Positions 6,752 to 42,700 of a stretch of DNA of 64,000 nt are shown here, one piece after another (the stretch's first letter is position 1; each line of letters starts with the position of its first letter). The translations under genes were made by a program, and so were the position numbers. Below the pieces are notes generated by a model. It was given only the letters and a program-made list of their open reading frames with translations. It had not been told where the DNA came from and did not search any database. Origin of the DNA: Rhea pennata. Taxonomy: Eukaryota; Chordata; Aves; Rheiformes; Rheidae. The stretch lies in NCBI RefSeq assembly GCF_028389875.1, contig NC_084687.1, forward strand, positions 8,158,157 through 8,222,156, given 5' to 3'.

Positions 6752-7262
6752 AATGAACATTACTTGATTAGTAAAACACAATTATTATTTCAGAGTTGGT
6801 ACACTGTTGCATTTTTCTGTCTTTCTTAGTATATGTTCAGTATTCAGGACTTTCATTTCCTTCATATGAATAATCTTGATACATAACTACATCAACCTGC
6901 ACAGTATTTTCTGCATTTCATTCTCTACACTATAAGAAGCCTGGAGACAAAAAATTAGCTCACTTAATTTTGAAATGAGTATAACTACAAAGAAAATTAC
7001 TTTAAAAAGGAAACATGTTTTGTCTGGTTTTGAAGAAAGTCAGTTTGTTCTTCTAAATAATTCGCAAAAGGATATCATTTAATGAGTTAAATGCTGAATC
7101 TTTTAAAATGAACTTTTATTTGAAGTTGTCTTGCTTTCGGTTCATTTTGCATGTTCTTGTCTTTTTTGAACTGCTTTATTTCCAGTAGCCACTACTTCAG
7201 TATGTTAAAACAGTTCTGAAACATTTAAAATTGTATTTTCAATAAAAATTACTAATTTCAGA
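6752..7262 (+). other. SYCP1: SYCP1 3'UTR with poly(A) signal
   Basis: AT-rich untranslated sequence after the stop. An AATAAA hexamer lies at 7241-7246, so cleavage is expected about 15-25 nt later. The downstream end is inferred from that signal. Confidence 0.65.
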
Positions 7263-8205: not shown

Positions 8206-8211
8206 TTTATT
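8206..8211 (-). other. Poly(A) signal for the minus-strand membrane-protein gene
   Basis: AATAAA read on the minus strand, 590 nt downstream of the TAG stop at 8800. It is the first canonical hexamer noted in that direction and would give a 3'UTR of about 0.6 kb. Confidence 0.4.
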
Positions 8212-8799
8212 TTAATAGAGACTAATATTTTAAATAAGATCTAAACACTTGCCTGTGATCATTATTTCATTTCAAGATAGCCTATGCCTAATTTTGACAG
8301 TTGCTATTGTTGGCATCTTCAACATGTATGCAGACTTGGCTCCTAGGCTAGTGACTGAGTAATATAAAATTTCAGGCTGTTTGAGTATAATAAAATTTCT
8401 ACTACTTTGTCTTCTCAGCTATGGTTCACATATAAATCCATAAACTATAATTCCATTGTTCAAGTTAAGATTCAGAACTCATATCAAGCCTACCCTACAA
8501 CTTAATTTTGCTGATTCTGGAATATGCGATATTTAAATGACTTAATGCAAAAATATAGTTTAAACCACTGCTGAGTGAGACTTACATGAAAAACAAATGT
8601 TTTCTTTGATATTAACCAAGCATCATTTCCAGGATAGCGGTCTACGTACAGTATCTGACATTTCATTAGAAGAAATGGCAAGAAACTTAAGCAGGGATAA
8701 TTAGAAATGGTACTTTAGCATTAGAACTGCATGTCATAGTTACTGTGAGTGTTGTGGTAATTAAAATGTCTTGAAGGTGGAGAAAAGTCAATTTTCTAT

Positions 8800-8972
8800 C
8801 TAAACAGGTAAATATTCAAGTCTGTGCTGTACACATCTGGATTCAAATTGTAAATAATCAATTTGAACTTCATTATTTTTCAGTGCTGTCATGTCAGGGT
8901 TGTAAATCTGTGGTGCATCATATAGTCCTCTGGATAGCACCTGTGTGTCATGTGGTATATTACATAAATCAT
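8800..8972 (-). CDS. Membrane-protein gene: terminal exon
   Basis: Acceptor ctttgtaattttgcag, then 56 codons and TAG. The open frame begins within two bases of the acceptor, as expected for a real exon. Contains LYDAPQIYNPD and IDYLQF. Confidence 0.55.
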
Positions 8973-11425
8973 CTGCAAAATTACAAAGGTACCATTGTTA
9001 CTATTTTAAGAAAAATTACAGAAAATACAATAATCTAGAAAGGATGCAAAATCATATTTCCCTCATACTATGCATATTTCTGCAAGTGGACTATATAGAC
9101 TAAATAAAAATGAAAAAACTATTTTAGGTATTCATCCACTTTACACAGGAAAAGCAAGTGAAAATTAATGCGTGTGCTTTGGCTTGTGGATCCTTCAGGT
9201 AGCATACACATAAACAAACCCTTTAAATTGAAATCTACTAGTTATCAGCTATTCATTGTAGTGAATATTAATATTTTTACATGTGGAACTTTGTTAAAGT
9301 TTTTAAAGCTGAATTCTGATGGCATTCATAGTATTTGTAACTGGATAGTTCAATTTGCTGCAATTTTTAAAATATATATATTTTCATATATATATACACA
9401 CACTTTCATTAAAAGTATTAGCAAGGTAAGCTTACTTCTAGCTGACTTTTTCTCAAGATTTGAAAATATATTTTAATCTGTGGCAGTAAATGTAGTTATC
9501 AATGAAACTGAGTATTTTTTTTGTTAATGCTATTTTGAAAAATACTTGTGTTTTGACTATTTCCAGTGAAATACATGTTTGTTTCATTTATTTTTCCACT
9601 GGGTTCTTATTTTCCTCATCTATTTTAAAGAGGATATTGCCTTCAGTGTCTAAAGTATTAAATGTCTTATTAGTAAGGATATAATTGGTAATGATTGTGC
9701 AGCTACCAATTTAACTTCTTTCCATGTACTTCCCCGCTCCTCCCACCCCAGCCCTACAAGCACGATCTACAGCAGCTTTGCTAGATGGTGTCTCTATTTC
9801 CACAGTTTATACAAAGTCTGCATAGCATTCCGTTTACATTCTTTTGAGCAACAGCACCCTTTCAGAAGCATCCAGGAATTTTGCCGCATTTAACAGAGCG
9901 GACTTACTGTCAGTGTAAACTACTCCAAGACTTAACCTCCAGGTACCCTCTGAACACGTGCAAGGGCTCTGACAGCGCTGCAGATTCCGTCTGAGACGTT
10001 AGAGCATCTCTGTGCTCTGCTAAGCAGAATCAGAAAGTGGTTCTGTCTCACGCTTTTCATGTTACACATATGGAAATGTAGGTTTGTCTTCACAGAGTAT
10101 GTAATTTAAAAAAATTGAGCCAACCTGTCAGGAGACTTTTTATTCAGTTGATGGTGTGAATAGTGGGCAATTCTTTTTCTGTACTTGTTATGAGTGTATA
10201 TAATAATCATTAGAACTGTAAACACAGTGATGCTGCTGAAAGTAGTAGCCAGAATGGAAGTCCGTAGATGAGCTTCTCCTGCTAAAATAATGTTATTTTG
10301 GAAAAAAAAAAATGCATAAAGCTAAGAAGACAGCAAACTGCACCCTTTAGATTCTAATAAAACAGCATAGAAAGCTTTTGTCAGCACAAATTTAAAAGGA
10401 CAGTTTGAAAATCCAGTGTTCAACCTCCTCAATACCCTACCTACAATATTTTGCCTCAGCAGCAATACAGAATGATACTTCTGATACAGTTTCTTCTTAC
10501 AGAAGTGAATTTTTGAAGATTTGATTTGAGTTTGAATGTTCATTAAGATAAGCGTACAGGTCAAACGCACATGGTCAACACTGAACTGGGTTTCCACTTT
10601 TTGTTAATGACTATTTAGAATGCTGAAGTAGTTGAGGAACTGTAGCTTGCACGTGTAGCTAAAAGGAAGTTTGTTAATACTTGGTTACTTTAAATTAAAG
10701 ATAACATCTGGAAATGGTGGTGTATATTATCGTTTTCCTTTATTATATTGTGAACAGTTCTCCATTTTCTTTTTTGTCAAAATTTTCAAGAAGGGTTGGC
10801 AATACTGTGGCCTACTATTTCTGCTTCCTTTCTTCCTCTCATCTTTATTTACCCTTCATTTAATTCTATATTTCTCTAGTACTTTAAACACCCCCCGCCC
10901 CGGGGAAGCTGATGCCAATTTCCTGCTCTCACCTCTTAAGCTCTCCAGCAGAATGGTATGTACTGCTCATGATATTCAATAGTATCTGTTATACTTGAGC
11001 TCAGTATTGGAAAAAATTAAAAATGTAGTTAGGCTTTGTGAACTGCTTTGAGGATTTGTAGCTCTGAAAATGCAAACTATGAGCAAAAGCAAACTTGATT
11101 TTTTATTGCCATCAAGTTCTTAACACAGTTGGACCTCTATATCTCGTCTTCACCTAAAATAAACAAGTCAGGCCTCAGCAGTTTAAGGGAATGTGGCTGC
11201 AATACTTAATGACACACACCTGCAGCCTGCATTATATGATTTGAAGTCAGACCTCTACTGGTGATGGTTGGTGGGGTTGTGAAAAGATGATCAGTTGGTT
11301 CCAGCATTTCTAATGTTTGATTTATAGTTCTATTAGATGATAAAAATTTATGTGGTGGAGTCGCAGCAGGTTTGAATCTTGTGATATATGAAGACTTGTC
11401 AGTGTTTGAACTTGGGTGGTGAATG
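8800..11425 (-). CDS. Unrecognised single-pass membrane protein, C-terminal four exons
   Basis: I do not recognise this gene. Four minus-strand exons join in frame: 11220-11425, 10125-10278, 9908-9990 and 8800-8972 (TAG at 8800). Intron phases are 1, 2 and 1 in turn. The chain reads: a 68-residue Ser/Thr/Pro-rich stalk with NRT and NQT glycosylation sequons; a hydrophobic helix (ILATTFSSITVFTVLMII) followed by the stop-transfer HNKYRKR; a Cys-containing segment (RCQSPCTC); then a tail with VVYTDN, LYDAPQIYNPD and IDYLQF tyrosine motifs ending LEYLPV. This is the layout of a type I surface receptor or sialomucin. The ectodomain and signal peptide were not located. It lies tail-to-tail with SYCP1. 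Seen: splice sites and frames. Inferred: topology and that it is expressed. The 9908-9990 exon is the weakest link. Confidence 0.55.
9908..9990 (-). CDS. Membrane-protein gene: juxtamembrane exon (tentative)
   Basis: Acceptor gctctaacgtctcag, donor ACA|gtaagt, 27 whole codons. Chosen because it is open in the required phase (2 in, 1 out). Without it the transmembrane exon would run into a TGA directly after splicing to the last exon. Confidence 0.42.
10125..10278 (-). CDS. Membrane-protein gene: transmembrane exon
   Basis: Acceptor cattattttagcag, donor GACAG|gttggc, 50 whole codons. Encodes EAHLRTS, about 20 hydrophobic residues, then THNKYRKR, the classic single-pass anchor with positive residues on the cytoplasmic side. 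It is the strongest of the four exons. Confidence 0.62.
11220..11425 (-). CDS. Membrane-protein gene: stalk exon
   Basis: Donor GCAG|gtgtgt at its low end; chosen acceptor ...catcaaacag. 68 whole codons, 23 of them Ser or Thr, many Pro, and two N-glycosylation sequons. The frame stays open about 11 codons further upstream, so the acceptor is uncertain. Confidence 0.5.
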
Positions 11426-13189
11426 CTGTTTGATGCAAGGTGTGCCAAATGTGATGTGGTTATTGAAGGAGAGAAATCTCATATTTTATATTTTACTTAA
11501 AAAAAAAAAAAAAAGTAAGCACTGCTAGAACTTAATGCTGCAGTACAGGCTTGTCATATCCAAGTGCTTCTGGAGCTAATTACTTCCAAATGGCATTAAA
11601 AAAATTCTTCTGTTTAGAAACAGCAATATCAGAGAGTTCAAGGTAGAATGAAGAAAGCAAGAACAAATCAAGAAAATGACACTACAGAACTCGCCTCGGC
11701 TGACAAACGTGGTAGTTTGCTGACGGCAGGTAGTACAGAGAAACAGATCTGGTGTCTTAACGCATACCTGTTTATTTGGACCCTGGAATATGCTCCTGGA
11801 GGGCTGAGAGAAATGCAGGAGTGTCTCTATGGTGGCCAATGAAGCTGCACTGGAGTTTGAGACTAGTCAGGGTAACTGTGCTAAGTTGAGCTTACCTGTT
11901 TGAATCTGGCTGTACAGTATTACCAAAGGTGAGTGTTACATATCGGTAGCTGCTGATCTTATTTTACAGTGGCTTTTACAAGTATTTTTTTCAGAATCAG
12001 ATGCTGCTTGGGAAGAATCCCTATATACAGTTTTCTTCAAATGTGCGGAGGGAAGCTACTACAGGCTTCTTGGTTAAAAATATATATTAAAAAAAATCCT
12101 CTTATATGTACAATATACAAAAATAAATGTACAAAATTATTATAATATGACAACTATTCTTAAAACAAATAACATTTCCATTACATTTCTAAGCCCAAAG
12201 GATTAACAAAAATGCTACAGTATTTCAATTACCATAATAATAAAAAGACATCCCACAGTATAAATAACAGCATTACTGTCATTCTTGACTTCCTAGAGGC
12301 TTTTCTTTCCTGTGATACCCAAGTTTTTAATGTAGTTTGCCTTGCTTCTGTCAGGAGCATCCTGCAGGGTCAGGTTAAGGAGGAAAAACAGTCTCCCTTT
12401 CTACTTTCTTTGAGCCATTTTAATTTTTTGTTGGAATCCAGAAATGGCTTCCTTGCTGGAAAGCATTTACTTTTGCAGGCTTCCCAGTTGTAACTGTGGT
12501 GGACGCTTTTCTTTTTCAGGTGAGCATGTGAGATTGCCTAAGAGAGGAATGCGTTTTGTGCTAAGAGCAGCATCTGACAGGGCTTCCTGCCCAAAGCCCG
12601 AAAGGAGAAACAGAAGCATATCCCAGGGTTTGTACTGAGCAGATCAACAGCTTAAATGCTGATCCAAGAAGTCTCTATTGTACATGCTTTGCGTCAAGCC
12701 TCCATGCAGATCTTCATTGGTAAAAATTGTGTCTGACTACCTATTGCCTGCCTATGTTCATGGGAGATTGCTAGTCAAATCAGGAGAATACTACTGTTCA
12801 CTTAGAAACTGAAATTGGTGACTTTTTAGCGAAATGGGTCTCCCTTTCTACAGCAGCTACTCCTTTTTCCCCTGACCACAGTAGATAAGGGCATTTGAAG
12901 GAGGGTTAAGGACAGGCAGGAGGACTGTGGTTCTCCTCCCCTGAGATACACCTTTTGCTGAGATTGTGGAATCATTTATTTCTGAGCAGGTCTTAAGGAT
13001 TAGATGCCTTCCAGGCATTTCTGTAAGATCCAAGGGTGTTGCCTTGTCTTTGGTGCCTGTTAGTGCCCTGGGATCCCTGTCCCTAGTCTTGGTACTGCTA
13101 TCTGATGCTACAGAGTTTCATGCGGCAGAGTCTGATTACCATTAGGAGTTAAATTTGGTAGTGTGATAGCTCAGACAAGCTAGTGCTGC

Positions 13190-14413
13190 AATGGATGGAT
13201 ACAGCCCCTTTCGGGAGGATGGGCTGGGAAGGTGAGGAGGCGAAGTTGCCCTTTATGCGGGAGAGCAGGTGGAATGCAGTGGAGCTCTGTCTAGGGTCAG
13301 AGGATGAACAACTTGAGAGCTTTGGATGACTAGAAGAAGCCTTGGGTTTACAGGCTCTCGTCCTGGATGTTGCTTAGGTATATATATCTTAGTAATGCTT
13401 TCAATGTTATCTCCCATAACATCCTTTGAGACAGGCTGATGGAGTACTGGCTGGATATGGGGATGATGAAGTAGATTGAAAACTGGTTGAACTACCAGGC
13501 TTAAAGGGTTGTGATCAGCAGCATGAGGCCTCACTGGAGGCCAGTCCCTAGTGGTGTACCCCAGGCGTCAATACTGGGTCCAGTGCTAATTGACATCTTT
13601 ATTAATGACCTAAATTGGTGGAACAGGGTGCACTCTCAGCTAGTTTGCAGATGATACAGAACTGTGAGGAGTGATTGAGGGCCAGAGGTTGTGCTGCTGT
13701 TCAGAGGGACCATGACAGGCTGGAGACATGGGAAAAAGGACTCTCATGAAGTTCACCAAAAGGAAATGTATCTGAGTAGGAATAATCCCGTACACCAGGC
13801 CAAACGGCTGGAAAGCAGCTCTGCAGGAAAGGCGCTGGGGTCCTGGTGGGCAAGAGAATGAACACGAGGCAGGAATGTGTCACTGTGGCAAGAAAGGCCA
13901 GCAGGTTGAGAGAGTTGATCCTTTCCCTTTACCTAGTTTTGGTGAGGCCACACCTGATACACTATTTCCTTTCTGGGCAGCCCAATACAAGAAAGACATG
14001 GACGTACTGGAGCAAGTCTAGTGAAGAGCCACAAAGATGATTAAGGCATTGGAGCATATGATAAATGAGGAGAGAGAGTGCCTGTATTGTTTAGGGCGCA
14101 GAGGAGGAGGTCCAGGGGTATTAATATGTATAAGCACCTGATAGGGGAGAGTAAAGAAAACGGAATCGGGCTCTTCTCAGTGGTCTCCAGCAAAAGGAAA
14201 AGAGGCAATGGGTATGAACTGAAATAAAAGAAATTTTGCTTAAACACAGGAAACTATTTTATGGGTGACTGAACACAGGAACAGGTTGCCCAGAGAGGCT
14301 GTGGAGTCTCAGTCCTTGGAGATGATAAAAACCTGATCAGATGCAGTCCCGAGCAAGCTGCTTTGAGTAGGGGGATTGGACTAGATGATCTTCAAAGGTC
14401 CCTCCAACCTTAG
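13190..14413 (+). mobile_element. CR1 LINE fragment, plus sense, internally deleted
   Basis: Starts in a piece like the CR1 ORF2 endonuclease region (gaagttgccctttatg), jumps by internal deletion near 13.33-13.39 kb to the reverse-transcriptase C-terminal region (ggtgtaccccaggcgtcaat), and continues through the 3' region to the typical end (ggattggactagatgatctt). Several frameshifts and stops mean it is dead. All ORFs inside it are remnants or shadows. Confidence 0.9.
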
Positions 14414-15010: not shown

Positions 15011-16904
15011 GGTAGGATATCGTCTGAATTTAATCCTTCATTCTTTATAGTACTTTTATTGTACTGCAGAATGCTTCTGGCTTGCATTTGTGGGGGGGGG
15101 TTTGTTTTATTTTGTTCTAATTTGTAAATATTATCTTCATTATAGAGATTGTATATCTTACAACAACAGGAGCTGAAATATCTTGCACTTTCAAAAGAAA
15201 TGTAATCAAATACAAAGTGGTCTATCATATGAGCCACATTAACAAGTAAGATTGTGAAGTATTTTCGGACTATAAATGGAGATTGTTGGCATATGATACG
15301 CAACAAGGAGAATCGCTCTTTAAATCTGTGCTTGATAAGGAAATGCTGCAGCTAATCCTAGGGAAGAAAGGAGAGCAGTCATCTGTGAATCTACAAGTTT
15401 GAGACATGAAAGCTATGTTTCAATCAGTTACAGAGAGACCTGAAAAAGACAGATTAGTTTTGAAGATTCAGCAGACACAATCTGTTTAAATGCAAAACCT
15501 GGTGACAAAAACCTTGTTCCTATGGCAACATGTTTGCTTTCATCTCTAGAGTTCTGCAACTGGATGGAATTGGAAATAATTCCTCTACTAGAATCCTAAT
15601 CTTGTAGGAATCTGATAGTTTTTGTCTGCTTTTATTAGTATATCTTCCAATTGCAGCATTGTTTGCAAGCATGGAGAGGTTCTCATTTTAATACCCAGAA
15701 TGCTATATGCAGTGGAAACAAGACCTTCCCACACTACTCTATGGGTTAACCTGTTCATAAGCTCTACAAAGTTGTCATTCTGTTATCATACTAACAGAAC
15801 AAGTGAGCAGGAATATCTTAAGCAATGATCAAGGAAAGAGAATTGTATTAAGTTATTTTTTACATAATACTTCAGGCATGTACTGAATCTCTCTGACCCT
15901 TTGTAATTTCAGAGATTCCTGGGTAATGAACTCAAGAATTTTGATTGCTGTATTCTGTTTACAGATATCAGTTAAAAAACTTCTTGTAGAACATCAGCTT
16001 ACTGCTTTTCACTTAATGAAAGTGTAAATAACTGATGTCAGTGAATGGATTAGTTTAGTTAACAGAAAGGTTAAAGATAAATAATTAACAGTGTAACTGG
16101 CTGTTCCAGAACACAGCTACAAAGCTGGTGGCTGTAAAAGCACATTAAAAATGTGTATTACTGAATAGCCTGCAGGTCAGCAGGAGGGTAACTAAAGAAA
16201 TGGGTTGATAAGCATCAGATATTTAACTATGAATTTAGGAAACTGTATGAATGAAGCCTTGTGCGTTAACAGGGAGCCACACTGGACTTTGCTGTCAGTC
16301 TTTGTCTTGCTGCTCCTGGTATGTATGGGGATCTTGCTGTCATCAGGTGTATAGAGAGTCATCTCCTGCAGTCATATCCAGAAGAACAGCCAGGGAAAAG
16401 CTTTTCTACCAAACTGATTACTGGAGAAATCTGAATATGTATAGCACTTAATGAAATTTAGTGCATTTCTGACATGGGCAGGCTGAGCTGATGGCAGCAA
16501 AGAAGAGGCAGTAGCAAAGAGGTTTCCAGGTCCATGTTAGCGTGGAGCTAGCCTGAGTGGTAGGAACAATATACAAATTAGTCTACAGGTTCACTCAGGC
16601 TAATTTATCACACTTCCAGTTAAATGAATTTTCATTCTTTATACTTGATCAGATATCTTTGTAATGCACTGTAGTGCGTTCAGAGGCTGAGTAAAAAGCC
16701 AGCAGAGTAAACTGAGTTGCAATGAATAAATGCAATTCTGAAATTATATTGCCAGTATTCAGCATACACCACACCGGACTCTGCTCTAATTCTGCATGAC
16801 AGTAGGGCTCTGGACAGACAGAACTAAGGACAGTGCATCTATGTAGTTGTCTTAACAACCAAATTTGCAATCACCTCAAAGAATGAAATCAGGTTTGTGT
16901 GACA

Positions 16905-23900: not shown

Positions 23901-25700
23901 AATATTCAATTACTTGCTTTCCCAGCTACCTGAAACTGAATTTTCTACATCTCTGGGAGAAGTAGTAGTGCCAAGGCACTATGTCCTGCCACCATCTCTC
24001 TACATAGTGTAACCCCTTTCTAAAACAAAGGGAGGAGAGATTAGGGAATGGTAATATTATTCTTCTTTTGTAGCATAAATGCAAGGAGAAAATAACTTAC
24101 TTTGCCAAGCTTGTCACATGTAACCTTATTCCCATGTACAGGAACAAACTCTAAAAGGTAATTTCTGCCTACTGACATACTAATTACCCAGCTCTAATCC
24201 TACTCTATATTGCATCAGTTACATCCATAGCAGCACCTGTTTGTGCCATTATCATCTATTAAACAGGTTAAATAATTTCAACTCCATTCAAAGCACGAGA
24301 ACCGAATTTTAATAAATCTGCCTGGAAGCATCTTTTTTGAGCAACAAGATGAGTTTTTAATTTGATTACCAAGCTTCGTATGCTTTGCATTTCAATCAGC
24401 TGAGTAACTATGGATAAGAAATTGCCAATGCGTGGCAAACGATCAGATTCCTGGTTAATACTACATACTGTGTTATAAATTCATTGCTACTTGTTTTTAT
24501 AAAATTCTACTAACTTTTTTTAAATTTAAATATTGCATTCAGAAAGGCTATTGAATTTAAATCAAAGCAATTAAACAAATTTAATCAAGCTGAAAATCAG
24601 ACTGACATACACAAAATATGAATTATTTGAAATATTACAAAAGGAACAGTCTCATCTCTGGCTAAGAAGTGCCTGAAATAGTCATTTGCAGTCAGTTTGA
24701 CCAGGGTCAATTTAACTGCAGCACCTAAAAATATTACTGAGTTGCAAAGTATGTTTTTCTCTATTTATGCCTTTTTTCCCCTTTAGAATTACTATTGTAG
24801 CTCCTTAAGAAATGATAATCCAAGTTTTGAAATAGTAAATAAAGGAACCAGAATGCCAGTATGTGTATTTTACAAATATGAAATTTTATTTTCTTATAAA
24901 ATTTTGCTTTCAGTGTTTAGTGTCATGAACAGTTCTGGACTCTCATACTCTAATCCAAACACTTTGACTGCAGCAAAGCCTCTGTGAAAGACCAAGGGAA
25001 TCTGCTAGAACGTAACAGCAAAATCTTTGTCCAGGACAACTGTAAGTAAGATGACAGCATCTGCATGCTTGTCAGTGATTCTAGACAGGTATGAACTGTA
25101 ATCATCTTTTCTATAACTTGGTGGTATACAAGATGTCTCTGCAGGCAAGGTTTGAAAACTCAAATTCTCCCAAAACCTTTGTTTTAATTTAATAGAAAAT
25201 GAAAAGGATTCTACAGAAACAGTGGGAACTCCACTTCTGCAAGGTTTGTCACTTACATGCATAGTTTAAACAATGCGTTTGTGGCTGGATGTACACGAGA
25301 CCGTTTCCTCTACAACTGTTGCACCAACAGAGATTAGTCAATTAAAGTTTACAGCAGACCACTTTGGAGAGGAGCCTTCTTCCTCCAACACAACTATGAA
25401 ATCCATGTAGTGACAGCATGTGAAAGAACTCTGGGCCTTCTGAACAGCTACAGCATAGTTATAACATGAATTACTCCTCTACTTTGTGAAAAGCACGGAG
25501 AATGATGGAAAGGTTTGGGGAGCCATCCAGCAAAATGCAGCAACAACGTTACCTGCTCAGTGGAAAAGGAACAACAGAAAATTTTCAGCTTTAGAATCAG
25601 AGAGTGCCTTTGCAATAAGCACAAGCATTTAAAAGGGTATTTAGCACAGAAAAGGCGCCTTGCCACGCAGCAACATGTAGACTTCGAAGGAAAAAAAAAA
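20960..25700. other. TSHB-to-CpG-island intergenic stretch
   Basis: AT-rich sequence with no recognised gene. Two minus-strand open frames sit behind acceptor-like sites (21390-21638 and 25005-25262) and are treated as findings only. A C11 run lies at 22324-22334. I see no clear transposon. Confidence 0.4.
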
Positions 25701-25704
25701 TAGA

Positions 25705-26480
25705 GAAAGGACGCAGGCCCAGCGTGCCGAAGCGTTCCCGCCGCAGTGGCCTCGGCACCGGGGCGCGCAAGCCCGAACCGGCAAGCGACTGCCGGGGTGA
25801 AACCCACGCAGGATCACCGGGAAACCCCAGCGGGGCCTCGCGCCCCTTGCAACACGGGTCAAGCGCCTCTTGGGGACCCGGCGGCAAGGCAAGCTGCTTG
25901 TCTGCGGCCGCTCTGCCCGGGGAGCCCGACACCCTCACCACTTCGGAACGGGACCGCGCTCCGCGGACAGCGACCGCGTCGCCGCTGCCGCCGCACCCCC
26001 TCCCACAGCCGGCCTTAACGTCAGCGCCGCCGCGCGCGCGCGCGCGCGCTCCCACCCTCCTTCGCGCTGAGGGCAAAGCACCGCCCGCCCCGCGAGTAGC
26101 CAATAGGGAGCGAGCGTCGTCTCGCGCAGCAATTTCCGCCCCCCCTCCTCCCCCGCCGCGCGAATAGCCAATAGAGAGCGAGGCTCGCCCCTCTCCCCGC
26201 CCCCGGGGCGGGATCTCCCCGGCGCGCGGGGCTCTGAGGCGAGCGGAGGCGGCGTTGCGGCTGCCGTGCGGCCCGGGCGAGGCCTGCTTCTGTGCTCGGG
26301 CAGCCGGCCCCATCGCTGAGGCGGGCGGGCTGCGCGAGGGACGGCGGCTGCGGCTGTGCCGCCGGACTCCCGGGACCCTGCACTGGGCGGCCTGAGCGGG
26401 AGAAGACAGAGGTGAGGCGGGGGCGGCGCGGCGCGGTGGCGAACGCGGGGAGCTGGTGTGGGTGACGGATTCGGACGGCG
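25705..26480. promoter_or_regulatory. Orphan CpG island promoter
   Basis: Abrupt GC- and CpG-rich block in AT-rich surroundings. It holds two copies of TAGCCAATAG(G/A)GAGCGAG (26097-26114 and 26165-26182), i.e. CCAAT boxes in the same flank 68 nt apart; GC boxes (ccgcccgcc, ccccgccccc); a CRE-like aacgtcag; and a (CG)n run at 26031-26049. The CCAAT orientation and the donor at 26411 favour plus-strand transcription, though such islands are often bidirectional. Long GC-rich open frames across it are compositional. Confidence 0.75.
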
Positions 26481-26995
26481 TAAGGACAAGGTCCCTCTGC
26501 TAATCTTCCATTTCAGGTTATTTTTATTAGAATGTTGTTTCAAATTCAACACAGAAAAACTGATAAAACTCCCCTTCAGAACATACCACGCTAAAGGGAA
26601 GTAAGAACTGATTTCAGCGTCAGAACGAGTGTCAGTCCCATTTTTTTCTTTCACAGCTGTCATAGAGATAATGCTGCTACAGACTGCAGTCATAAACAGA
26701 TATCCCGGTTCTGTCTAAAATCAGAATTTGCGCTATACCAGTGAGTTTGCTGTAATGGAAATGTCTTCTGTATTGCAGAAGATTGGCATGGGCAGAGCAC
26801 CAACAGAGAGGAAGAACTAAGATTGACAAGCTTTACTTATCTACATTTTCTATGAACAGCATCTGATGCTGTTAATCACTAGTTTCCAAAGATAGCATTT
26901 GAAGGTTTAAAATAACTCGATTTCTTTTTCATTACATATGAAATATATTTTGCTACAAAACTAGAGGTGTCAGGCTAAATAAAAGCAAAATATGC
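26230..26995 (+). ncRNA. Candidate two-exon noncoding transcript from the CpG island
   Basis: First exon from about 26.23 kb to 26411, ending CAGAG|gtgagg. A possible second exon opens at 26779 after ttctgtattgcag, and AATAAA lies at 26978-26983. No convincing reading frame crosses the junction, so it is called noncoding. Splicing and expression are inference. It could instead be the 5' end of a longer transcript, or the island may drive the minus strand. Confidence 0.3.
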
Positions 26996-39700: not shown

Positions 39701-42700
39701 TTCCTAATTTTGTCACTGCTTTGGTCTCTATCTGCTAATGAAGAAGAGAGAGGGTTATACAACTTACTAGTATCTAGAGTTTTTTGGCATGCTGTTCTGC
39801 ACACAGAAACAGACACCAAGTGAATAGAGTACCAAGATCAGTCACGCTACTATGTCATTAAAGAGGGCAAACATGGGACCAAAGGCAGAAACCTGTCATG
39901 CATGTGGCTGCCTGCAACTCAGGGAACATAATGCATCTGCATGCAAGTCTCACAAAGCAAGTTAGTCTCAGTCCCTTAGTGCCAACGGGATGAAAAGACA
40001 CTTTCCAAAGAATTAAACTCCATGTGCAAAATGCAACAGAAGATTGGTTGATTTGAGCCAACAAACTGATGACTATGAGGGACACTGGAGAAAGTATGGG
40101 CCTCTATATAAACACAGTGAAATGAAAATGAAGTTTCATAGGAATGAGTTTTTTGAACAAAACCAATTTGTGACCTTTTTTTGTGAAAATCCCTGCTGTT
40201 TATCTGTTTTTTATCTGTGGGAAAATATTCTGGGTTTTGTTTTTAGCTGTGCTAAAACAAACACACAGAGACAGATTTTTGTAAGCTGTGAAGACAAATG
40301 ATCACTTCCATTTTAACAGTATATCAAGTGAGAGAATACTAAACAACATATTGATTTTTCTTCTGGCTGAAAAACAGAGTGTGAGAGGGAGAAAAGCCCA
40401 TACTTCAGCCACTGTTTCAGTTTGCAAACAACAAAGTTGGAAAGCATTAAAGCGGCAGCTTTTCTACACACTCAGTTTTTTTTATTCATCCTATGGGAAA
40501 ATCATTATTTCCTGAAAGGAAAATGTCACATGAGGATATGCCCTGAGAAAATTTCAACAGGAGGGATTCCCACTTTCCCGCAAACTCTGCTTTGTAATTG
40601 TAAGGGGAACAGACAGTTAATCAAGAAGTTGAGTGGCAACTATGCCTGCAAATAGTAAAGAACAGCAAAGTCACAACTGAACAGACATCTTGACTGGACT
40701 CTGTGTTCAAGGCACAGAATTCTTCCATAAGATACTGTTTTCTCTGACTGTGCACACACATACCCTATTGGGATTGGACTTGGAGACAGCAGATCTGCAA
40801 GCGTGAAGGAGCACCCCAAGAAGGATGAAGAGTATTTTGTGTGCCATTTGTGGATGAACAAAACCATTGCACTTAGCACTAAGACAGAATTTCATCATTT
40901 TAGGTTAGGCAGAAGAGAAAGATGGAGTTTTAGAACTACTAACTGCAATATGTCTTTATGTGTATCAGAGTGAGGGAGCAATCAGCCCCATTTTAGAAAA
41001 ATGATGTGTGAAATCTGTAAAGACTCTTATTCTTGCTCTTTATTCTTTAGAGTGATTAAAAACCTATGTCAATGTAACATGCAAGTCTATGCATAACTAA
41101 TCTGAAAGGAAATGCAACTAGTTCAATAGTTTGCCCTATGGCACTTGGACAGAGTAACAGCTATGTCCTTAGACTCACAATCCCTTTCTATTGCCATTGC
41201 AAAGAATTACATGATTGGCAGGGACGTTTACTGCCGATGTTTTATGAACCAGAAAGGAAACATTACAACACAAAGCAGACAGTGAGGAACCTATTAACGT
41301 GAGTGTTAAAACCATTCTTATTTCAGACAAGGTATGAACCATCACCACTGCCACCAGCTACCCTCTGCCAGCTTCTCAGGCTGGTAGAGATCTAAGTTTA
41401 GACTCCAGAATAGAACCCATTCACAGAGCTGTTTTTCTCCAAAATCTCACTCAGAGCTTTGAAATACAAATTCATGTCCAGAGCCAATTGCAAAGAGCAG
41501 GAGGAGACAAAGGCACAGTATCTCTGTCTGGTTTTATTTCACATGGGTTCCTTGTTTACCTGGCTACTACAGTCACTTTTTCCATTTTAAATAGTTATGC
41601 TCTTTCTTTTTTTGGGCTGAGTAACCAGCACTAAACAAACCACTGACTGTTCATATTCCATCACGAAAACAAGCAGCTCTGTTCTTTGCATAAGGGATCC
41701 AGAGGCAGTGATGACAGGAGTCCTAGAACCCAGACATGATTTGAAGAGATTTTCCTGAGGTTGTATGTGAATTACAATCTTTGAGGCAAATGTGTTCCTC
41801 CTTAGAAGAACTGAGGCTCTCAAACCTCAGTTGAGCACCAAGAAACAAGTAGTGCAACTGCACAGTTGGAAAAGATGAGAAACACATGTAGGAGTTGGAA
41901 ATAACTGGCTAGACAGGGCACTAGGGTGACCTGCAGCTGCCTAGAGAAAGGGGTGAGTTATAGAAGTCAAAGAAGGAAATGGCATAACTGTCAGTTCAAC
42001 TGCTGTTGCTTTGCGGAACTGACTGGCTTTTAGGCAGCTGCACACAAAAAGATTGTGTGTGGAGGGGAGAAAGGTGAAGACAATTTACCAAGGAAAAACG
42101 ATAGTTTAAAACACATTACGTTTAAGTGACTCATTAAAAAATTAAATGCCTCCTGATTCTCAGCATATTGCAAACACAAAGCAGTCAGTCTGAGGTAACT
42201 GGACAGATTGTTCTACTTGGTTTAATTAGCTTGTTTTATTAGAACTCTGACTTTGTGATGGCCTTGCCTTATACTCTGCCAGGCAGGATACTGGTTTTAG
42301 GAGCTACTTGCTAGGTCATGTGATCCAGCACAGAAACTGAGGACTTTGCAACAGCTTCCCTTTTGAGTATGGGGTTTTGTTTTTATTTTGTGTTATTTGT
42401 TTAAACTGATTTCCAGTGCAGCAGTTTTTGTTTTCTAGCCAAGAAATTACTATCAGCCTCTTCTATACCTCCCTTCCTTAACCACAGAAGAAGGGACCTG
42501 CACAGAAGATGACAGGAAGAAAGATAGATAAGTTCATTGCTTAAGTCTTAAGTACAGACTAAAAGCCTCTGCAAGGTCCCATACACATGATGGCAGGACT
42601 GCTTGACACACCATTTTTGCTATTGCATGTCTGCGCAGAGGCTACTTTGCCAACAGCTCTTATTTTAAAGGCTGATAGAATTAATGGGGCAATGGACCTT

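Follow-up and report, generated by a model that had tools for sequence, protein, structure and literature searches.

A 64,000-nucleotide window of the Rhea pennata genome (NC_084687.1, positions 8,158,157 to 8,222,156) contains, on the minus strand between SYCP1 and TSHB, a chain of exons that we read, with about even confidence, as a real single-copy gene of five exons (12282-8800), probably avian or sauropsid, whose product would be a small sialomucin-like type I membrane protein of about 221 residues. It is fairly probable that a real gene is present, whether short or long, and we prefer the short closed frame to a longer gene. The gene reading is favored by the in-phase GT-AG exons, the rarity of such chains in simulations, the composition of the stalk, a matching signal-like exon and the single copy, and it is weakened by near-zero codon log-odds, three weak splice sites, an aspartate in the signal core, thresholds set post hoc and the lack of a detected homologue.

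Four of the exons had been proposed in an initial annotation as minus-strand exons with matching phases, and they were found at exactly the junctions given there. When the exons at 11220-11425, 10125-10278, 9908-9990 and 8800-8972 were translated across their splice junctions, they produced one open frame, free of stops until the TAG at 8800-8802 that terminates it. Each of the junctions (11220/10278, 10125/9990 and 9908/8972) is GT-AG, and the phases 1, 2 and 1 are compatible. Exons 2 to 5 thus span about 204 codons without a stop or frameshift, in a window sequence that contains no N; both sequence and phases are directly observed. Exon 2 (11220..11425, donor CAG/GTGTGT) encodes the stalk, exon 3 (10125..10278) the transmembrane helix ILATTFSSITVFTVLMIIIY (10196-10255) followed by a basic stop-transfer, exon 4 (9908..9990) a short cytoplasmic segment, RNLQRCQSPCTCSEGTWRLSLGVVYTDN, and exon 5 (8800..8972) the tail, with YDAP at 8911-8922, IDYLQF at 8845-8862 and LEYLPV at 8803-8820. 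A possible poly(A) signal, ATTAAA, lies 3' of the stop at 8211..8216, and further ATTAAA or AATAAA motifs occur beyond 8211 at 7880-7083; on both counts the assignment is by motif only. The plus strand has an AATAAA at 7241 on the SYCP1 side, and the candidate gene and SYCP1 are arranged tail to tail.

The splice sites differ in quality. Among the minus-strand sites of the window, donor 11220 ranks within the top 0.4% of GTs and acceptor 8972 within the top 2.9% of AGs, while donor 10125 (0.56) and acceptor 9990 (-0.98) both score weakly, and exon 4 is therefore the least certain of the original four. The 5' boundary of the stalk exon is also uncertain. Acceptor 11425 scores -1.11 and is preferred to 11477 (-10.99), a very poor acceptor through which alone the exon could reach that far; acceptor 11495 is stronger (3.19) but would bring an in-frame TGA into the exon.

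The stalk is rich in serine, threonine and proline. With the preferred acceptor, 11425, the stalk has 77 residues, of which these three make up 36%, a proportion reached by 8 of 343 open frames; extending the exon to 11477 lengthens the stalk to 94 residues and raises the proportion to 38%, reached by 2 of the 343. The comparison set consisted of open frames of at least 75 amino acids from the window, the stalk frame among them, and from genomic stretches with a GC content no higher than 0.45. Two N-glycosylation sequons, NRT and NQT, are present. The stalk had been described as Ser/Thr/Pro-rich and N-glycosylatable, and both properties were borne out; it is predicted to be O- and N-glycosylatable and sialomucin-like. 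The single transmembrane helix with its basic stop-transfer likewise held up, with a mean hydropathy of 2.13 over 20 residues, followed by NKYRKR. The tail of 108 residues has seven tyrosines, one YDxP motif (YDAP) and one ITIM-type match, LEYLPV, which forms the last six residues of the chain and fits [ILVST]xYxx[ILV]. Of the tyrosine motifs claimed earlier, YDAP stands, but IDYLQF is only ITIM-like, having phenylalanine at +3, and the strict ITIM is LEYLPV. Such motifs are not rare by themselves: among 824 frame ends of 56 residues, taken from the window and from genomic stretches with a GC content of at most 0.45 and including the tail itself, 106 had an ITIM, 32 had at least four tyrosines plus an ITIM, and four had an ITIM plus YDxP. 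In the predicted product, one helix with a basic cytoplasmic stop-transfer agrees with a type I single-pass membrane protein, the S/T/P-rich ectodomain bearing two sequons with a cell-surface sialomucin, and the ITIM pattern in the tail with an inhibitory ITIM receptor.

An ATG exon that could open the chain lies within 1.5 kb upstream of 11425. This candidate exon 1 (12233..12282, minus strand) encodes the signal-peptide-like sequence MTVMLLFILWDVFLLL plus two bases, has a phase-2 donor (ATG/GTAATT) and joins acceptor 11425 in phase to give a closed frame of 221 residues. The candidate signal peptide MTVMLLFILWDVFLLLC at 12282 joins in phase but carries an aspartate inside its proposed signal core. 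There is an in-frame ATG upstream of this exon, near 12360, and an alternative first exon, beginning MLLFLLSGFGQEALSDAA and also with a phase-2 donor, lies at 12471-12619 on the minus strand. Of 300 simulated upstream regions, 2 contained a comparable phase-2 first exon at the same stringency, 7 at a looser setting and 48 at the loosest; when phase 1 was allowed as well, the counts were 4, 26 and 75. The first exon and 5' end are thus put forward as a proposal rather than a result, and transcription of the gene is likewise predicted from the DNA.

Searches of the 1.27-Gb assembly indicated that the chain has no second copy in its own genome. At the protein level its four exons matched themselves alone, the three matches ranked after them having E values of 7.55, 7.58 and 9.92, and at the DNA level the segments 11220-11460, 9850-10330 and 12180-12900 each gave a single match; as words that are very common are passed over in the DNA search, the single-copy result is strong rather than absolute. 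The initial annotation had asked whether the sequence might be a dispersed repeat, and these single DNA matches, with protein matches below E 7 confined to the chain itself, speak against that. Using Pfam, we found no family match and no Ig-like domain in the chain. A search of PDB sequences found no relative, its sole match being a chalcone isomerase-type protein at E 0.099; no homologue of the chain was found in the viral contigs searched, and Rfam gave no match. In the open-licence literature searched, we found no paper that names a gene in this position or describes a receptor resembling it; genome annotation may already list the gene under a LOC number. The earlier proposal of an unnamed type I membrane-protein gene is partly supported, by its anatomy, by the missing second genome copy and by the want of a family or paper found to name it.

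The possibility that the open-frame chain arose by chance, through free choice of splice sites, was examined with a chain finder that required a stalk frame, a transmembrane exon with a basic stop-transfer and a terminal exon, and allowed a middle exon as well, all in phase and within splice-score limits. The real region passes at the strict, loose and looser settings. Since these limits were set post hoc, with the real values known, the chance figures flatter the chain: among 3000 order-3 Markov simulations of 3.6-kb stretches, none passed at the strict setting and three at the loose one, but 59 (2%) did at the looser setting. The corresponding counts were 0, 0 and 27 of 2000 order-2 simulations of the region itself, 0, 0 and 6 of 100 genomic stretches (GC content of at most 0.45, those of higher GC excluded) and 0, 1 and 3 of 72 stretches taken from the rest of the window; a separate strict run passed none of 400 simulated and none of 60 genomic stretches. 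A chance origin gains from the looser chains in simulated and genomic stretches, from the three weak splice sites and from a near-neutral codon score. The codon log-odds of the four exons were -1.7, 0.2, 4.4 and -0.6 bits, near zero overall, compared with 0.6 to 6.9 for eight of ten SYCP1 and TSHB exons and negative values for the other two; codon-model scoring has little power here, and separated neither the chain nor all of the known exons. The strict and loose counts, the stalk composition and the matching first exon argue in the other direction, and we regard a chance origin as unlikely.

A longer gene, in which diverged upstream exons encode a folded ectodomain and the proposed first exon is wrong, also appears rather unlikely. 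Type I receptors usually have a folded domain, the 5' boundary of the stalk exon is weak, and a CpG island at 25.6-26.7 kb could serve as a promoter. The initial annotation had placed ectodomain exons above 11.4 kb, possibly beyond TSHB, but a Pfam search of the minus strand from 11.4 to 28.2 kb, in 18 pieces of about 1000 residues, gave nothing above the cut-off and a single chance-level match (E 0.17). In control searches with smaller pieces, all below 1000 residues, the TSPAN2 exon was detected in pieces of 56 and 467 residues and TSHB in a piece of 667; pieces of about 5000 residues missed TSPAN2, and those scans were not counted. No minus-strand exon of phase 1-1 with good splice sites was found from 11.5 to 40 kb, an exon search of the minus strand from 11.5 to 26 kb returned three unconvincing candidates, and a genome-wide V-set search, with 150 of 563 candidates scored, placed none in the window among the matches listed. 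In place of the predicted upstream exons, the exon at 12233-12282, with its signal-like sequence, completes a short frame. The absence of a recognizable folded ectodomain, together with the weak sites at 10125 and 9990, could instead point to a recently dead or dying gene whose exons are still open and whose ectodomain is gone; with the stop-free exons 2 to 5 and a compatible first exon set against it, such a pseudogene seems distinctly improbable. We give hardly any credence to a remnant of the transporter gene SLC5A8L, and rejected it. Exon 5 is the best match in the window to the C-terminus of human SLC5A8, with a score of 48 for the ungapped alignment QIYN....YL.F and 1 of 300 shuffles as good, but phmmer gave an E value of 0.69, an equal score was reached in 4 of 6806 control frames, none of 56 genome matches to the sodium-solute-symporter family PF00474 fell in the window, and no symporter match occurred in the Pfam pieces. 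In SLC5A8 the segment that aligns forms an extracellular loop, as opposed to the tail in the candidate protein. Synteny speaks for the remnant: fish are reported to have SLC5A8L in the interval from SYCP1 to TSHB, and in coelacanth it is described as a neighbor of SYCP1, in passages that do not mention TSHB (PMC9309457, PMC4048157).

In our preferred reading, the short five-exon gene, the product would consist of a signal peptide, a glycosylatable stalk of about 70 residues, one transmembrane helix and a tyrosine-rich tail of about 108 residues. Src-family kinases would phosphorylate the tail, after which LEYLPV may recruit SHP-type phosphatases and YDAP may bind adaptors of the Crk/Nck type, as suggested by what is known of these motifs. 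Through such recruitment and binding the protein could act as a modulator of signaling or adhesion without a folded ligand-binding domain. More tentatively, the locus may represent an orphan sauropsid five-exon gene that has no mammalian counterpart and signals through its tyrosine tail and C-terminal ITIM, lacks a folded ectodomain, and either recognizes a glycan-based ligand or acts in cis. If transcribed, it would encode a lineage-restricted surface protein invisible to homology-based annotation; membrane proteins that are short, evolve fast and have tyrosine tails easily escape notice.

Several known families resemble the candidate. Small type I sialomucins of the MUC1, MUC15 or CD164 kind have a short S/T/P-rich ectodomain, one transmembrane helix and a tail with tyrosine motifs, a layout like that predicted here with its glycosylatable ectodomain. 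However, neither the MUC15 tail nor the MUC1 tail gave an alignment clearly above shuffles, with 176 of 300 shuffles as good for MUC15 and 29 of 300 for MUC1. The TIM family combines a mucin-like stalk with a tyrosine tail, as the candidate does, but no IgV domain was found in the candidate. Two chicken TIM genes are described as putative orthologues of TIM1 and TIM4 (PMC4913284). Chicken TREM-B1, an ITIM-bearing inhibitory receptor, resembles the candidate in its type I layout and in having a motif of the ITIM type, but is described as having two V-set Ig domains (PMC4788293); none was recognized in the candidate or, above the cut-off, on the minus strand from 11.4 to 28.2 kb. The sauropsid protein chB6 (Bu-1), an antigen of avian B cells, is described as a heavily glycosylated type I protein whose tail is unlike those of other families (PMC11882424). 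It has in common with the candidate a probable restriction to sauropsids, a type I layout (with glycosylation predicted in the candidate) and the unusual tail, and offers an avian precedent, a key cell marker without a clear mammalian homologue. It is further described as having a pair of Ig-like domains, with CCC as a palmitoylation site and PPMP as an SH3 site (PMC11882424), and its gene is reported to lie near CD2 on chicken chromosome 1 (PMC4031500). We rejected orthology with chB6, as neither the CCC nor the PxxP/PPMP site occurs in the translated tail, and Ig domains and a CD2 neighborhood are likewise not seen.

The placement between SYCP1 and TSHB was confirmed on the TSHB side, with TSHB at about 19.7-20.9 kb on the plus strand; the plus-strand exons below 6.76 kb, recognized by eye, we take to be the 3' exons of SYCP1. 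TSPAN2 lies on the minus strand, where one exon at 35.96-36.13 kb was confirmed as tetraspanin, and its first exon, recognized in the same way, is presumably near 50.0 kb. Within the presumed TSPAN2 intron, a minus-strand open frame at 40764-40847 has a signal-peptide-like start and a phase-0 donor. The plus-strand segment at 13500-14410 has an end that appears to resemble the 3' end of a CR1 LINE. Two open pieces of the plus strand at 15130-15480 resemble a decayed Ig V domain by eye, and this Ig-like appearance (15.15-15.48 kb) was unsupported by the Pfam and PDB-sequence searches. The gene order SYCP1-TSHB-TSPAN2 is reported to be common to fish and mammals (PMC4048157).

A strong CpG island at 25600-26700, between TSHB and TSPAN2, reaches a GC content of 0.77 with a CpG observed/expected ratio of about 1.0-1.1. 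No Pfam match above the cut-off was found on either strand of the island, which is a possible promoter of an unassigned transcript. Elsewhere on the same contig, clusters of V-set exons were seen at 4.31-4.33 Mb and 6.12 Mb. These clusters are consistent with a TREM/PIGR region like that of chicken chromosome 26, where TREM is reported to lie.
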